DNA of 56,496 nt, taken from the NCBI GenBank assembly GCA_028712885.1, contig JAQTPK010000002.1, forward strand, positions 91,876 through 148,371. Reading direction: 5' to 3'. How positions within the stretch are numbered: position 1 is the stretch's first letter; every line of letters starts with the position of its first letter. The translations under genes were made by a program, and so were the position numbers. Under the pieces are notes generated by a model. The model worked only from the letters and a program-made list of their open reading frames with translations. It searched no databases and had not been told where the DNA came from. Source of the stretch: Syntrophales bacterium (GTDB lineage Bacteria > Desulfobacterota > Syntrophia > Syntrophales > UBA4778). Positions 16,986-23,644 of the stretch are shown piece by piece.

Positions 16986-17801
16986 ATGAGCGGCACGGAT
17001 GATCTGTTGAAGTTTGCGGAGTCGACAGCGGCGGAGGCGGGCCGTTTTTTGAGGGAGCGGCTGAACTCCAAGCATTCGGTCGACTACAAGGGAGAGATTA
17101 ATATCGTCACGGAAGAGGACCGCATGTCCGAGGAAATTATCAAATCTGAAATCCGGAAGCGCTGCCCCGGACACGGCATTCTCGCCGAGGAGACGCCTGA
17201 GACCGGAAGAGGCGCCGAGTTCCGATGGATCATCGATCCGCTGGACGGAACGACGAACTATGCCCACGGCTATCCCGTCTTTTGCGTTTCTCTCGCCCTG
17301 GAAAAAAACTCCTCGGTCTTGCTCGGGGTAATTTACAACCCCATGCTGGAGGAGATGTTCACCGCACGCGCCGGCGGCGGTGCCTTCCTGAACGGGAAGA
17401 GGATCTGCGTTTCATCCGTTGCAGATCTTTCGCGCAGCCTGCTGGCGACGGGCTTCCCCTACGACATACGAACTGATCGCTTCAACAACCTCGACTACTT
17501 TGCCGCGATGGCCGTCAAGGCGCAAGCCATTCGCAGAGCCGGCTCCGCCGCTCTTGATCTCGCTTACACGGCCTGCGGCCGCTTCGACGGATTCTGGGAG
17601 CTCAAGCTCAAGCCGTGGGATACCGCTGCGGGATGCCTGCTCCTCGCGGAAGCGGGAGGAAAAATCACAGACCTTGACGGAAACGAGCACCGGATGGACT
17701 CTGCGCATATCGTCGCTTCGAACGGAATGATACACGATCAGATGCTGCGCGCGCTCGGTGAAACCGAAGGCAGCCGACGCCCCCGAACGAGCGACTTCTG
17801 A
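16986..17801 (+). CDS. suhB: Inositol monophosphatase family protein (SuhB-like)
   Basis: A 271-residue Mg2+-dependent phosphatase. It has the metal-binding motifs EEDRMSEE, AEET and the signature WIIDPLDGTTNYAHGYP, and the C-terminal KPWDTAAGCLLLAEAGG motif. It hydrolyses inositol-1-phosphate or related sugar phosphates; some members also act in rRNA maturation. ATG 16986 is preceded by GGAAGGAGAG. Divergent from the RodZ-like gene. Confidence 0.92.
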   Translation: MSGTDDLLKFAESTAAEAGRFLRERLNSKHSVDYKGEINIVTEEDRMSEEIIKSEIRKRCPGHGILAEETPETGRGAEFRWIIDPLDGTTNYAHGYPVFCVSLALEKNSSVLLGVIYNPMLEEMFTARAGGGAFLNGKRICVSSVADLSRSLLATGFPYDIRTDRFNNLDYFAAMAVKAQAIRRAGSAALDLAYTACGRFDGFWELKLKPWDTAAGCLLLAEAGGKITDLDGNEHRMDSAHIVASNGMIHDQMLRALGETEGSRRPRTSDF

Positions 17802-17874
17802 AACCCGCATGGATGCTGAGACACACGAGATCAAAATTCGGCAGAAAAAATTTCGGATAAAACCAAAAATGCTC

Positions 17875-18087
17875 TTGACATGTTGATAAAAGATGTTATT
17901 AGGAGTTCAAAAAACCGAATCTTTTTCGAACTCCTTAACCGTCCACGATCCGGTGCCCTTCTCAATTCCAAAGATCGTACCCTCCGTGTGATGGAGAGGA
18001 GAGACAGCAAGCGGGCCGAACATCACAGCAGTACAGTTCAGCAGATTCTGACGAAGCTGAAGAGCTTCAACACACGGGGGAGGGGAA
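17875..18087 (+). promoter_or_regulatory. Promoter and long leader of the kamA operon
   Basis: TTGACA (17875-17880) and TATTAG (17897-17902) with 16 bases between form a good sigma-70-type promoter. The predicted start is about 175 bases before the kamA ATG. Immediately after the -10, GGAGTTC and GAACTCC (about 17902-17935) with A-rich and T-rich inner arms can form a hairpin at the transcript's 5' end. I see no coding sequence and could not match the leader to the lysine riboswitch. Confidence 0.6.
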
Positions 18088-19458
18088 ATGGAATTGAGAT
18101 TCCCGATCAAGGAGGAAGAAGAACCTCCGGGAGACGCGGTTTCCTCTTCGTTGGCCTCCATAGAGGGAGAGGCCTCTCTTTTCGGGGGAGGAAACATAAT
18201 CCAGAAGATCTGGCCGGGCATCACGGCCGGACAATGGAACGACTGGAAATGGCAGATGGCCAACAGGCTGAGAACCATCGACGATCTCGTCATGTTTCTC
18301 AACCTCAAACCGTACCAGGTCGCAAAGTACAAAAGCCTGATCCGCGTATTTCACTTTGCTATCACCCCTTACTACCTTTCCCTGATCGACTGGTTCAATC
18401 CGGAAGATCCCATCCGCAGGCAGTGCATGCCCGATCTCCGGGAAATGGAATTCCAGATCGTAGGGGATTTTGATCCTCTCGAAGAGGACCTCGATACGCA
18501 GGTGCCCGGCCTTGTGCACCGTTACCCCGATCGCGTGCTGGCAGTCGTGACGAACACCTGCTGCATGTACTGCAGGCATTGCACCCGGAAGAGGATCTGG
18601 AGTTCGGGAGAGTCCGTGCGGTCGAAGCAGGAACTCGCGTCCATGGTAAATTATGTCCGGGCCACTCCGGAAGTCAGGGAAGTGATCATTTCGGGCGGCG
18701 ATCCCCTGACCATGAATCTTGATACGCTGGACTGGTTCATGGGAGAGCTGCAGCGGATATCCCATGTTGAAGCAATCAGGATCGGAACCCGGGTGCCCGT
18801 GGTCATGCCGATGCGGATAACGGACGACCTGGTCAAAATGCTGGCCCGCCACCGCCCGCTTTGGCTGAATACCCAGTTCAATCATCCGCGCGAGGTCACG
18901 CCCGAGTCCCAGCAGGCCTGCGACCGCCTGCTGACCGCCGGCATTCCCGTATCAAACCAGTCAGTCCTGCTGCGGGGCGTCAACGACTCGATCGAAACCA
19001 TGAGGGAGCTCTGCCACGCCCTGCAGAGAATCATGGTCCGCCCCTATTACCTCTTTCAATGCGATCCCGTCCGCGGCGTAGAGCATTTCCGCACGAATGT
19101 CTGGAAAGGCATTGAGATAATAGAAATGCTCAGAGGGTACACCGGCGGGCTTTGCATCCCTTCCTTTGTGGTCGATACGCCGGGCGGAGGCGGCAAAATT
19201 CCCCTTCAGCCTTTCTATCTCCTCTCCGCGACGGATAAGGATATCCTGCTCAGGAACTACGAAGGGATGATCGTGAAGTATTTCAACCCGCAGGACGTCG
19301 ATTTCGGACTTCTCAAAAAATCGGCCATGAACGGCAAATACGGCGGCACCGCCCAGCTTCTCAAAGGCAACGGGAAAGCCCTCGTGCCGGAAGAGACCCC
19401 GAGATACCGCCGGAGAATGAAAAGCTCCCTCCTCCAGATAAAAGAGGAGAAGGCATGA
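18088..19458 (+). CDS. kamA: Lysine 2,3-aminomutase family radical SAM enzyme
   Basis: A 456-residue KamA-family enzyme (PLP and [4Fe-4S]-SAM). The radical SAM cysteines are C158, C162 and C165 (CCMYCRHC). K370 in TPGGGGK matches the PLP lysine. D326 (QCD) and D363 (VVD) align with Asp293 and Asp330 that hold the lysine side-chain amine in the clostridial enzyme, at exactly the same offset, so the substrate is probably lysine, giving beta-lysine. All four zinc cysteines of the clostridial enzyme are absent (position 301 is Ser, and the C-terminal cysteine cluster is missing). The extra 33 N-terminal residues are unusual. The stop overlaps the next start by ATGA. Confidence 0.92.
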   Translation: MELRFPIKEEEEPPGDAVSSSLASIEGEASLFGGGNIIQKIWPGITAGQWNDWKWQMANRLRTIDDLVMFLNLKPYQVAKYKSLIRVFHFAITPYYLSLIDWFNPEDPIRRQCMPDLREMEFQIVGDFDPLEEDLDTQVPGLVHRYPDRVLAVVTNTCCMYCRHCTRKRIWSSGESVRSKQELASMVNYVRATPEVREVIISGGDPLTMNLDTLDWFMGELQRISHVEAIRIGTRVPVVMPMRITDDLVKMLARHRPLWLNTQFNHPREVTPESQQACDRLLTAGIPVSNQSVLLRGVNDSIETMRELCHALQRIMVRPYYLFQCDPVRGVEHFRTNVWKGIEIIEMLRGYTGGLCIPSFVVDTPGGGGKIPLQPFYLLSATDKDILLRNYEGMIVKYFNPQDVDFGLLKKSAMNGKYGGTAQLLKGNGKALVPEETPRYRRRMKSSLLQIKEEKA

Positions 19459-20447
19459 GGATCGGGTTCACCTATGACCTGAGAAAAGACTACCTGGAGA
19501 GGGGTTATTCGGAAGAAGAAACGGCGGAATTCGACAGCGAGGAAACCGTACAGGTCATAGCGGACACGATATCTTCGCTCGGGAATGAGGTGATACGGGT
19601 CGGGAATGTCTACGAGCTTGTAAATCGCCTTTCTTCAGGGGAGCGCTGGGATCTCGTATTCAATATCACAGAAGGTCTGCGCGGCCGCAGCAGGGAAGCA
19701 CAGGTGCCGGCCGTTCTCGAAGCTTATCACATCCCTTATACTTTCAGCGACCCGCTGACCCTCGCGCTCTGTCTTGACAAGTTTCTGACAAAAACCGTCG
19801 TCAGCCGCTGGAACGTCCCGACTCCCGCATATTTTCAGGTTGGCTCGGAAAAAGAGCTGGAAACCGCGCTCCGGGAAAACCGCATCCCTTTCCCTCTTTT
19901 CCTGAAGCCCGTTTCGGAGGGGACCGGAAAGGGAATCACTCCCGCATCGGTCATACGGAACAGCACGCAGCTGAAAAAGCAATGCCTGGAGGTTCTGGAA
20001 AAATACAGCCAGCCGGCCCTGGTCGAAAAATATCTGCCCGGGCGCGAATTCACGGTCGGCATCGTGGGGAGCGGGAAAAAAGCTGAAATCGTCGGTGTGC
20101 TCGAGGTGGAGCTTCTCGACGGCGCGGAACCTCTCGCGTACTCATACAGCAACAAGGAGCTCTGCGAGCAGCACGTCAGGTATGTTCTGACGGAGGATCC
20201 CGCGATATGCCGCGAAGCCGCGGAAATATCACTGGAGGCATACTGGGCTCTGGATTGCCGGGATGCCGGCAGGGTGGACATCAGGGCGGATGAGAACGGG
20301 AAGCTGCATTTTCTCGAAATTAACCCTCTCGCGGGACTTCATCCGACCCACTCGGATCTTCCGATTTTATGGCAGAAGACCGGAAGGACGTATAAAGAAC
20401 TGATTGCGGAAATTATCGCTTCCGCATCTGCCCGCAGACAGAGGTAG
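19455..20447 (+). CDS. D-Ala-D-Ala-ligase-like ATP-grasp enzyme 1
   Basis: A 330-residue ATP-grasp ligase. FLKPVSEGTGKG is the nucleotide-binding loop, and RVDIRADENGKLHFLEINPL with the later GLHPTHSDLP matches the metal- and substrate-binding end of Ddl (NxxPG...SxxP). FDSEETV near residue 26 may match the Ddl glutamate that binds the first amino group. It probably activates a carboxylate as acyl phosphate and joins it to an amine. It overlaps kamA by four bases and lies four bases from the next ATP-grasp gene. No murein genes are near, so a role outside cell-wall synthesis is likely (inference). Confidence 0.85.
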   Translation: MRIGFTYDLRKDYLERGYSEEETAEFDSEETVQVIADTISSLGNEVIRVGNVYELVNRLSSGERWDLVFNITEGLRGRSREAQVPAVLEAYHIPYTFSDPLTLALCLDKFLTKTVVSRWNVPTPAYFQVGSEKELETALRENRIPFPLFLKPVSEGTGKGITPASVIRNSTQLKKQCLEVLEKYSQPALVEKYLPGREFTVGIVGSGKKAEIVGVLEVELLDGAEPLAYSYSNKELCEQHVRYVLTEDPAICREAAEISLEAYWALDCRDAGRVDIRADENGKLHFLEINPLAGLHPTHSDLPILWQKTGRTYKELIAEIIASASARRQR

Positions 20448-20451
20448 TAAA

Positions 20452-21444
20452 ATGAAAGTGGCGATTGTCTATAACGAGCCGGACAAGGATCGTCTGGATT
20501 CGATCGATATCATCGATCAGGTTAACATGGTATCCGATGCCCTGCAGGAACTGGAATACGACTTCGGGATGATCGTTGTGGGAGGGGACACCTGCCCCTG
20601 CGCCGACCTCCTGTACCAGCTCGATTCCTTCGGGCCGGACGTCGTTTTTAACCTCTTCGAGGCTCTTCATGACGACCCTAGATTCCACCCCGCCATAGCT
20701 TCCTTTTACGAAATAGGCGGATTCGCGTATACAGGGGCGCCCTATCCGGCCCTCCTGACCACAACCGACAAGATCCTGACCAAAGCAGTGCTGAAGGCTA
20801 ACAATCTGCCGACTCCGCCCTGGCAGACGTTCAACGGCGCGGCGGATTCCATCCGCCTCCGTCCCCCCTGGATAGTGAAGCCCTCATGGGAAGACGGCTC
20901 CGTCGGCGTGGACGAAGAATCCATCTTCACGGAACAAAAAGCCCTCAAGAATTCCCTGTCCGCCATATACCTGAACCACCGGCGGCAGCCGCTCCTCATT
21001 GAGGAATACGTCGACGGCAGGGAATTCAATATACCCCTTGTCGAGCTGTCCGACGGCTCCGTAAGGGTGCTTCCGATTTCGGAAATAACGTTCGAGGACT
21101 GGCCGGAGGACAAACCGAAGATCGTCGGGTATAAAGCCAAATGGGACGAGAACGCTTTCGAATATGAGAATACGCAGAGAGTATTCGTTCCCGACGACGC
21201 TCCGATCGACGCTATGGCCGAAATCGGGTATCGCTGCTGGGAGGTTTTCAACCTCGGCGGATACGCCCGGGTGGACCTGAGACTGGACGAGTCGGGAGGC
21301 CTCCACGTAATCGAAATCAATGCAAATCCGTGCATAGCCGCCGAATCGGGCTACATGCGGGCCGTAGCCGAAGGCGGCTTTGAGGCGCGAGACTTCGTCC
21401 GGGAGATAATCGGGGCCGCCCGGCGGAGGCGCTACATCCGATGA
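20452..21444 (+). CDS. D-Ala-D-Ala-ligase-like ATP-grasp enzyme 2
   Basis: A second ATP-grasp ligase of exactly the same length (330 residues). IVKPSWEDGSVGV is a Ddl-type loop and RVDLRLDESGGLHVIEINANP is the metal-binding end, but the Ddl SxxP tail is replaced by CIAAESGYMRAV, so the acceptor is probably different from that of enzyme 1. ATG 20452 is chosen because it follows the previous stop by four bases and starts the conserved MKVAIVYNEP. The gene overlaps the acetyltransferase by ATGA. Confidence 0.85.
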   Translation: MKVAIVYNEPDKDRLDSIDIIDQVNMVSDALQELEYDFGMIVVGGDTCPCADLLYQLDSFGPDVVFNLFEALHDDPRFHPAIASFYEIGGFAYTGAPYPALLTTTDKILTKAVLKANNLPTPPWQTFNGAADSIRLRPPWIVKPSWEDGSVGVDEESIFTEQKALKNSLSAIYLNHRRQPLLIEEYVDGREFNIPLVELSDGSVRVLPISEITFEDWPEDKPKIVGYKAKWDENAFEYENTQRVFVPDDAPIDAMAEIGYRCWEVFNLGGYARVDLRLDESGGLHVIEINANPCIAAESGYMRAVAEGGFEARDFVREIIGAARRRRYIR

Positions 21445-21947
21445 CCGCATCTCCGGCCCGCCGGTTCCGTTTCAGGCATGAGGCCGTCGCGGGGGATTCA
21501 GGCCCGCTCCGCGGTATCCTCTCCTCTACCGGGGTTTTTTTTCCTTTCGAAATCGACGTGGCGATCGAGCTCCTGGAGGATCGCCTTGAATACGGCGACG
21601 ACAGTCCGTATTCCTTCATCTTCTGCGAACTGGACAATCGTCTCGTCGGCTATATCTGCTTCGGCCCCATCTGCATGACCGACAACCGCTTCGACCTGTA
21701 CTGGATCGCTGTCGACAAGGGCCTTCAGGGTACGGGGGTCGGGAAGCTTCTCCTCGAAAAAGCCGAGCAATCCGCGCGGGAAACAGGGGGCGTCTTCATG
21801 TACGTGGAAACTTCCGGCAGGGATGACTACTTGAAAACCCGGCATTTTTACGAAAATCAGGGCTACCTCGAAGTCGCCTGCATCCGGGACTTCTATCGGG
21901 ATGGAGACGACAAAATCATCCTGGTGAAGAAGCTGACCCGCGGGTAA
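21441..21947 (+). CDS. GNAT family N-acetyltransferase
   Basis: A 168-residue GNAT protein. LYWIAVDKGLQGTGVGKLLL contains the acetyl-CoA binding Q-x-x-G-x-G loop, and the C-terminal YLKTRHFYENQGY segment is typical of the fold. It acetylates an amine; by context this could be beta-lysine or its amide product, as AblB does in Nε-acetyl-beta-lysine synthesis. Close similarity to AblB was not evident. It overlaps the preceding ligase gene and closes the operon. Confidence 0.88.
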   Translation: MTASPARRFRFRHEAVAGDSGPLRGILSSTGVFFPFEIDVAIELLEDRLEYGDDSPYSFIFCELDNRLVGYICFGPICMTDNRFDLYWIAVDKGLQGTGVGKLLLEKAEQSARETGGVFMYVETSGRDDYLKTRHFYENQGYLEVACIRDFYRDGDDKIILVKKLTRG

Positions 21948-21968
21948 AGCCCATGTGTCTGATTTTGC

Positions 21969-21998
21969 TTGACATGATTCCGAATTGCATGATAGCTA
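21969..21998 (+). promoter_or_regulatory. Candidate promoter of the structured RNA
   Basis: TTGACA at 21969-21974 is a perfect -35. The -10 is weak (TAGCTA or ATAGCT near 21992-21998, spacing 17-18). Confidence 0.5.
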
Positions 21999-22003
21999 TA
22001 CGG

Positions 22004-22179
22004 CCATGAAGATTCTTGCCGGAAGGAATATTCTTTCAGCAGCATGCTGGTGGTGGCGGGCCAAATAAGCCTGCCCGGGCGAGTTCTTCTGAGCGAAGGC
22101 GAGCCCTGGGCGAGGAAACTCCCCATGGCTTGACCGAACAGGAAATTTAGAAAGCCATGGGATCACCATGGCTTTTTTT
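22004..22179 (+). ncRNA. Unclassified structured RNA/attenuator before trpB2
   Basis: About 175 bases, promoter to terminator, with no coding sense. Visible helices: GGCGGGC (22055-22061) with GCCTGCC (22069-22075); GGGC (22077-22080) with GCCC (22103-22106) enclosing CTTC/GAAG; and GGG-c-GAG/CTCCCC (22108-22124) capped by a GAAA tetraloop. CCCATGGCTT (22122-22131) is fully complementary to AAGCCATGGG (22152-22161). That segment is also needed for the terminator, so terminator and antiterminator exclude each other, and the GAAA hairpin competes for 22122-22124. This is attenuator or riboswitch architecture. No match to 6S, SRP, RNase P or a riboswitch class that I know. Confidence 0.6.
22152..22179 (+). 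terminator. Intrinsic terminator of the structured RNA
   Basis: AGCCATGG (22153-22160) and CCATGGCT (22166-22173) with a GATCA loop, followed by a run of seven T (22173-22179). It is about 100 bases upstream of the trpB2 start. Confidence 0.88.
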
Positions 22180-22185
22180 ATTGCA

Positions 22186-22255
22186 CAAAGGGCAAAAGGC
22201 AAAGGGTAAAAAAAGATAATCAGAGAATTAACCCTTTGCCCTTTGCCTTTAGCCT
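22186..22255. repeat. Inverted pair of heptad arrays
   Basis: The left array (22186-22213) runs CAAAGGG, CAAAAGG, CAAAGGG and so on. The right array (22228-22255) runs TTAACCC, TTTGCCC, TTTGCCT, TTAGCCT. The two are imperfect complements with a 14-base gap. They lie between the terminator and the trpB2 ribosome site. Confidence 0.93.
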
Positions 22256-22279
22256 ATTATATATAAGGAGGAAATGAAA

Positions 22280-23644
22280 ATGGAGCAGAAGAAAATCTAC
22301 TTGGACGACCTGGAGATCCCCAGGCAATGGTACAATATCCTGGCGGATCTGCCCGCTCCGATGAACCCCCCCCTGCACCCGGCGACCGGCAAACCTGTCG
22401 GTCCCGACGACCTGGCGGCGATCTTCCCGATGCCCCTGATTGAGCAGGAAGTCACGCCCGAGAGATGGGTTCCCATCCCGGATGAAGTTCTGGAAAAATA
22501 TCTCCTCTGGCGCCCTTCGCCTCTGTGCCGGGCGAGGAATTTTGAAAAAGTCCTGAATGCGCCGGTAAAAATATATTACAAGAACGAGGGAGTGAGTCCT
22601 CCGGGATCGCACAAGCCCAACACGGCTGTCGCCCAGGCGTATTACAACAAGATCTCCGGCACCAAACGGCTCTGCACCGAAACCGGCGCCGGCCAGTGGG
22701 GCAGCGCGCTCAGCATGGCATGCAACATGTTCGGACTGGACTGCCGTGTTTTCATGGTGAAGGTGAGCTATGAACAGAAACCCTACCGCCGCCTCATGAT
22801 GCAGACATGGGGTTCCGAATGCATTCCCAGCCCCAGCAATATAACAAACGCCGGGCGGAATGTACTCGCAAAGAACCCTGATTCTCCCGGCAGCCTCGGC
22901 ATCGCGATCAGCGAGGCCATTGAGGAAGCGGTCACACATCCGGGATCGAAATATTCTCTCGGCAGCGTCCTCAACCACGTCCTGCTCCATCAGACCGTAA
23001 TAGGTCTCGAGGCGCAGCGGCAGTTTGAAAAAATCGGCGTATATCCGGACGTGGTCATCGGCTGCGCCGGCGGCGGCAGCAATTTTGCCGGAATAAGCCT
23101 GCCCTATGTACGGGATAAGATCCATGGCAAACAGGTTCGGATCGTGGCCTCAGAGCCGACTTCCTGCCCCACACTGACCAAAGGGCCCTTCGCATACGAC
23201 TTCGGCGACATAGCCAGGACCACCCCGCTCCTCGCCATGTTCACGCTTGGTCATGACTTCGTTCCCGAGGCGATTCACGCGGGAGGACTCCGCTATCACG
23301 GAATGGCTCCGATCGTCAGCCATCTTTTGAAGATAGGTCTGATTGAGGCCCGCGCCTTCAACCAGATAGAAACGTTCGATGCCGGGGTGAAATGGGCGAG
23401 AACCGAAGGATTCATCCCGGCGCCGGAAACGAACCATGCCATCGCCGCCGTCGTCGAAGAGGCAAAAAAGGCGCGCGAGGAAGGAAAGGAAAAAGTAATC
23501 CTGTTTAATTTCAGCGGACACGGCATCATAGATCTTCCCGCTTACGACGCGTTCATGTCCGGAAGGCTGGAAGTACATGATCTTCCGCAGAACGAGATCG
23601 ACAGGGCGTTGAGGGCCATCGAGAAGCATCCTAAGCCTCGATGA
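22280..23644 (+). CDS. trpB: Tryptophan synthase beta-like protein TrpB2
   Basis: A 454-residue TrpB of the TrpB2 type (fold II PLP enzyme). The PLP lysine is K112 in [21 protein letters not shown] and the phosphate loop [11 protein letters not shown] are present. It condenses indole and serine to tryptophan. TrpB2 proteins often stand alone, and here there is no trpA or other trp gene. ATG 22280 fits the AAGGAGG at 22265-22271 (eight bases) better than ATG 22274 (two bases). It follows an RNA with terminator/antiterminator logic, so expression may be attenuated. Confidence 0.93.

Follow-up and report, generated by a model that had tools for sequence, protein, structure and literature searches.

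A KamA-type aminomutase followed by a GNAT acetyltransferase makes up the AblA/AblB pathway to N-epsilon-acetyl-beta-lysine, which has been described in Pelobacter (PMC3543383). In the beta-lysylation of EF-P by EpmB and EpmA, a KamA-family protein is likewise the source of beta-lysine. We compared these systems with a locus on contig JAQTPK010000002.1 of a Syntrophales genome (assembly GCA_028712885.1), within an analyzed stretch of 56,496 nucleotides that we call the window. Here, a KamA homologue, two ATP-grasp ligases of the Ddl fold (LigA and LigB) and a GNAT acetyltransferase are encoded in succession. We consider the best reading, with a probability of roughly 0.6, to be that kamA-ligA-ligB-gnat form a single transcription unit and would constitute a self-contained cytoplasmic pathway to an acetylated beta-lysyl pseudopeptide.

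The locus resembles each of the described systems only in part. Unlike AblA/AblB, it places two ATP-grasp ligases between aminomutase and acetyltransferase; its GNAT belongs to another, shorter family, and its KamA carries an N-terminal tail with an EPP motif and scores just under the AblA cut-off. The window's genome, which is 99% complete, yielded no AblB (best match to TIGR03827, 15.6 bits against a cut-off of 205), which upholds the proposal of a sequence-only reading of this DNA that the operon differs from the AblA/AblB route. Compared with EpmB/EpmA, EpmA and EF-P are encoded in the same genome, but the operon is not adjacent to them and contains no EpmA, and in relatives the KamAs linked to EF-P group apart, in a clade that lacks the EPP tail. 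LigA and LigB share the fold and the ATP-grasp active site of the Ddl family, whereas their donor and acceptor recognition motifs are replaced and the curated Ddl cut-offs are not reached.

A conserved four-gene unit

The four genes (Table 1) are coupled as the sequence-only reading had described, with open reading frame coordinates that give an ATGA overlap at kamA/ligA, a 4-nucleotide gap at ligA/ligB and a second ATGA overlap at ligB/gnat. For ligB, a mechanical list of open reading frames begins at an upstream TTG (346 amino acids), but the ATG is preferred because alignments favor it. Since the lengths of ligase relatives range from ~308 to 360 amino acids, the equal size of LigA and LigB is a coincidence.

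Table 1. Features of the operon and its upstream region, in window coordinates
Feature	Position	Strand	Description
Promoter-like site, TTGACA-16-TATTAG	17875..17902	+	~190 to 210 nucleotides 5' of kamA
kamA (456 aa)	18088-19458	+	radical-SAM, PLP-dependent aminomutase, lysine 2,3-aminomutase group; Pfam, PDB and curated-profile matches
EEEEPPG motif, KamA residues 9-15	18112..18132	+	N-terminal tail
ligA (330 aa)	19455-20447	+	Ddl-fold ATP-grasp carboxylate-amine ligase; Pfam, PDB, AlphaFold2 (AF2) model
ligB (330 aa)	20452-21444	+	second Ddl-fold ATP-grasp ligase, different acceptor region; Pfam, PDB, AF2 model
gnat (168 aa)	21441-21947	+	GNAT N-acetyltransferase, family of solved structure 2r7h
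aa, amino acids; SAM, S-adenosylmethionine; PLP, pyridoxal phosphate.

A scan derived from the LigA profile covered 84,980 species genomes and found at least 575 LigA-encoding stretches. Among the 80 best of these, with denominators set by the loci testable for each gene, KamA is encoded directly upstream of LigA in 67/72, LigB downstream in 65/74 and the GNAT downstream in 53/60. Conserved co-occurrence of the four families, which had been suggested earlier as a check on the proposed pathway, is therefore overwhelming. The 80 loci span about a dozen phyla, assigned from record titles that include some metagenome-assembled genomes, in which binning may err: Nitrospirota, Desulfobacterota groups, Alphaproteobacteria, Gammaproteobacteria, Planctomycetota, Spirochaetota, Acidobacteriota, Chloroflexota, Bacteroidota, Myxococcota, WOR-3, Sumerlaeota, Neomarinimicrobiota and others. 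Desulfocarbo indianensis (locus L111) is a cultured carrier. Closer to the window, a LigB orthologue was found in 36 of 60 relatives, mostly of its own order (the window's genome, 34 others at E < 1e-40 and G014, with a split hit), and 18 of 19 fetched operon regions encode KamA with LigA and LigB in unchanged order; in G009, the set is divided over two contigs. Of 395 genomes sampled from the window's phylum, 112 match the LigA profile at E <= 1e-80, with operon-typical scores in ~80. One single-contig genome (G334) carries two complete copies of the operon (L156 and L157).

Clustering of neighboring genes at 99 loci returned no further family present in more than 12 of them, apart from an optional GNAT/deacetylase gene. 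This suggests that no dedicated transporter, nonribosomal peptide synthetase or murein gene is needed. The optional gene, absent from the window's operon, occurs at 19 of the 60 loci (again among the 80 best) with enough downstream DNA. It encodes a protein of ~580 amino acids that joins a GNAT-like N-terminal part to a histone-deacetylase-fold domain (PF00850). The nearest solved relatives of that domain are acetylpolyamine amidohydrolases (E 1e-71), enzymes of the class II histone deacetylase fold from which the operon protein differs in its N-terminal domain and its genomic setting. In one family, a cupin/XRE regulator is encoded immediately 5' of the operon kamA (L151 and L189), a possible sensor of the operon product.

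Several of these parts occur as gene fusions. LigB is fused to the GNAT at three loci (L068, L109 and L114), LigA to LigB at two (L158 and L190), and the ~580-amino-acid protein to the small GNAT at four (L076, L110, L123 and L130), implying that the fused parts perform consecutive steps. A more distant ligase pair lies with genes for a pyruvoyl-dependent arginine decarboxylase and an agmatinase in three genomes of one family in the window's phylum (L159, L185 and L186), in one of them also beside a deoxyhypusine-synthase-like gene (L159), which suggests that ligases of this type go with cationic amines. Together, the reversible acetylation and the polyamine genes would point to cationic-amine substrates. 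Glycosyltransferases are encoded downstream of this sister pair.

We found no description of the operon, the pathway or its product in the open-access literature, the only literature searched. The gene unit is real and conserved very widely, and to judge from the open literature it is undescribed. The optional GNAT/amidohydrolase, the fusions, the ligase pair linked to arginine decarboxylase and agmatinase, the EPP tail, the exclusion of AblB and the standing of this KamA as the only aminomutase in a genome with EpmA and EF-P all go beyond the sequence-only reading. A distribution that takes in Nitrospirota, Planctomycetota, Acidobacteriota, Spirochaetota and Alphaproteobacteria speaks for a small molecule with no name in the literature searched, whose makers include many uncultured and anaerobic bacteria. 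Such a molecule would carry beta-lysine chemistry past EF-P, acetyl-beta-lysine and antibiotics and would add two new specificities among Ddl-fold ligases. Cultured carriers such as D. indianensis make the pathway directly testable.

Active sites of the aminomutase and the ligases

KamA aligns with the lysine 2,3-aminomutase of Clostridium subterminale (2a5h; E 5e-131) at a constant offset of +33 residues, so that C125/129/132 correspond to C158/162/165 and R134 to R167. The alignment confirms the earlier assignment of both lysine-binding aspartates (D293 = D326 and D330 = D363) and of the PLP lysine (K337 = K370), and the equivalents of these three residues are kept in all 92 aligned operon KamAs. 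The protein also scores well above the cut-off of the KamA subfamily (TIGR00238; 343 bits against 199), with C158/C162/C165 forming the radical-SAM CxxxCxxC motif, and well below that of the EpmB equivalog (TIGR03821; 247 against 369). In a KamA tree, the window's sequence groups with operon KamAs of Nitrospirota, beside the EF-P-linked clade. The majority of operon KamAs fall in another clade close to AblA and the Clostridium enzyme, and the operon label requires at least two changes on this tree.

Both ligases match Pfam profiles for the Ddl C-terminal domain and for ATP-grasp, and Ddl structures in a PDB search. Their AF2 models, each with a pLDDT (per-residue confidence score) of 94.4, have Ddls as best solved matches (Z ~33 for LigA and ~32 for LigB); Ddl-type ligases alone stood at the top of these fold searches, and nothing can be concluded from the lack of other families there. 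Residues of the ATP/metal site are kept in LigA (K109, K151, D275, E288 and N290) and in LigB (K107, K143, a nearly invariant D275, E288 and N290). Aligned with the genome's own Ddls, both ligases lack the SSEREVSL donor loop. In LigA, the omega-loop Tyr is replaced by Glu, EGSS becomes EGT(G/S)KG, and an invariant Asp directly follows the acceptor Ser, at a position that we take to be that of Leu282 in Escherichia coli DdlB. In LigB, Trp occupies the omega position and the acceptor end reads NANPC(L/I)xxxxG. Given these replacements, the two ligases differ from Ddl and from one another, and the acid-rich site of LigA would fit a basic or cationic substrate. A third family, of stand-alone LigB-like ligases of ~350 amino acids (L138, L139, L141 and L144), occurs in many of the same genomes; we noticed no common neighbors for it.

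Proposed pathway and alternatives

From these features we infer the following route. KamA would convert L-lysine to beta-lysine, and LigA and LigB would then form two successive amide bonds, adding one or two further amino acids to beta-lysine or to another cationic amine. A free amine would be acetylated by the GNAT, and at roughly one in three related loci the GNAT/acetylpolyamine-amidohydrolase protein could take an acetyl group off again. Most likely, the pathway would end in a small pseudo-di- or tripeptide, acetylated and containing beta-lysine, that is retained in the cell, possibly as a protective or compatible solute standing in for the AblA/AblB product. More tentatively, and at somewhat less than even odds, we suggest that these loci make an undescribed and widespread class of pseudopeptides, rendered reversible by the bifunctional enzyme, for which aminomutases of at least two origins were recruited via the EPP tail, through docking or through control by mRNA structure or ribosome pausing.

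Several observations weigh against the proposed pathway. LigA is encoded without a nearby LigB or KamA at L118, L102 and L087, and the two LigA-LigB fusions likewise lack a nearby KamA. The window's KamA narrowly misses the AblA equivalog cut-off (TIGR03820; 502.3 against 525.4), and the stereochemistry of this aminomutase is not readable from its sequence. In favor of the pathway, AblA-AblB takes the operon's place in some of the relatives that lack it, and among the 60 relatives, mostly of the window's order, the operon is present in 0 of 6 AblB genomes against 36 of 54 others (Fisher p 0.003). Across the phylum, the exclusion is weaker (1 of 13 AblB genomes with the operon, 3.7 expected; P 0.08). 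This pattern is consistent with functional replacement, although shared ancestry confounds it, and it may reflect a lineage effect. Finally, record titles place many operon hosts in freshwater or sludge, so a purely osmolytic role is not favored.

The pattern of AblB absence would also be expected if the operon were the known N-epsilon-acetyl-beta-lysine osmolyte route with a different acetyltransferase and with the ligases as passengers, since an aminomutase and a GNAT are present and AblB is missing where the operon occurs in the order. However, LigA shows the strongest conservation among the new parts and directly follows KamA at 67 of 72 loci, LigB and the GNAT are fused in several lineages, and the operon GNAT is not AblB in a genome that has none, which leaves passenger ligases quite unlikely. 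That the ligases instead modify murein as a cell-wall or D-amino-acid (Ddl-type) pair is suggested by their fold (Z 32 to 33) and by the GNAT, which matches Pfam GNAT profiles and belongs to the family of 2r7h (E 1e-35), named by its depositors, only putatively, as a D-alanine N-acetyltransferase. Yet LigA (148 bits) and LigB (98.6 bits) fall short of the curated Ddl cut-off of 243 by ~95 and ~145 bits, key Ddl residues are replaced, and no murein gene recurs in the 99 neighborhoods. The genome also encodes two other Ddl-type proteins with the SSEREVSL motif, one with Tyr and one with Phe at the omega position, which adjoin an alr-like gene (assigned by eye) on contig C63. We therefore rejected LigA and LigB as the cell's Ddl, in agreement with the sequence-only reading, and regard a murein role as highly improbable. 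Of the three outcomes that the sequence-only reading had named as speaking against its proposal (genes not kept together in other genomes, a KamA inactive on lysine, a ligase that is the murein Ddl), none is seen at the level of sequence.

EF-P is the other known destination of beta-lysine, and KamA might chiefly supply EpmA, with the ligases and the GNAT serving some other end. In the window's genome, kamA on contig C42 encodes the only KamA, while EpmA, above its curated cut-off, adjoins EF-P on contig C63 with no aminomutase beside them; there is thus no genetic link between kamA and epmA/efp here. The window's KamA is the genome's only candidate source of beta-lysine for EF-P, and, as the sole KamA in a genome with EpmA and EF-P, it probably also feeds EF-P modification, making a dual role likely on this genomic evidence. 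A separate KamA beside epmA/efp in most relatives can be listed in favor of an EF-P role. The same arrangement speaks against it where the operon is present, since most operon-bearing relatives have a second, phylogenetically distinct KamA next to epmA and the operon KamA is thus not their EF-P enzyme. Given the tree and these separate KamAs, we rejected the operon KamA as a general EF-P enzyme in most relatives. Moreover, nearly every relative has EpmA, whether it carries the operon or not, and the window's KamA misses the EpmB cut-off. A sole EF-P role is unlikely even in the window's genome; as a general account of the operon, supply of EpmA is decidedly improbable. A further alternative is that beta-lysine is built into a low-molecular-weight cofactor, thiol or metallophore, or is attached to a protein. 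Two consecutive ATP-grasp ligases with acetylation and deacetylation are reminiscent of the way cofactors or thiols are made, and the wide spread over phyla would suit this alternative, but the 99 neighborhoods show no recurrent oxidoreductase partner, carrier protein or transporter, and we consider it unlikely.

The EPP tail and upstream elements

Operon KamAs share an N-terminal tail motif, [DE][DE]xEPP[GSD], typically 12 to 13 codons past the start. It is present in 79 of 88 operon KamAs and in none of 20 non-operon KamAs, whether EF-P-linked or AblB-linked (Fisher p 3e-15; this and the following p values are too small because related sequences are not independent). The motif is common to operon KamAs of separate lineages (L036 to L134), while the rest of the tail is unconserved. 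The first Pro codon of EPP is CCT in 58 of 74 sequences (78%), against 14% in the core and 18% elsewhere in the tail (p 2e-29), and the following Gly codon is GGT in 67%, against 12% in the core (p 8e-9). Given the conservation of the motif together with this codon bias, both peptide and mRNA appear to be constrained.

CCUCC can base-pair with Shine-Dalgarno sequences, and EPPG belongs to the motifs that make ribosomes wait for modified EF-P. In the window, a hairpin with a z of only -1.1 is predicted, in which CCTCC (18124-18128) could pair with GGAGG (18111-18115). Across operon loci, folding gave a weak excess of CCUCC pairing (mean 0.106 against 0.062 in controls; 0.45 against 0.34 with upstream coding bases). 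Since this excess is weak and the z score in the window is not significant, sequestration of the kamA Shine-Dalgarno sequence by the CCUCC of the EPP codons is no more than a hypothesis. The tail may act as a docking peptide, as an mRNA element or as an EF-P-dependent pause.

At the promoter-like site upstream of kamA, a block CTTGACATGTT...ATGTTAT is also present in G001, a genome of the same family. A simple promoter scan skipped the site because it demands T at the last position. CTTGACA is overrepresented 5' of operon kamA genes (16 of 70 loci, against 1.4 in random stretches), and a search for a conserved element of the 5' untranslated region found this promoter hexamer alone enriched. 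An Rfam scan of 17700-22300 found no RNA family within or upstream of the operon. Immediately 3' of the promoter-like site lies an inverted repeat, GGAGTTC...GAACTCC (17902-17950); in G001, its position is occupied by GAAATCA...TGATTTC, a stem that is wholly altered yet still pairs in this comparison of two sequences. Downstream of gnat, a Trp attenuator (22006-22180) precedes a TrpB-like gene (22274-23644). It comprises a leader peptide, MKILAGRNILSAACWWWRAK (22006-22068), rival AGCCATGG hairpins and a terminator with a z of -4.8, and G001 shows MKTKQIMESEMWWWQAMTGLSTGSPF at the same position.

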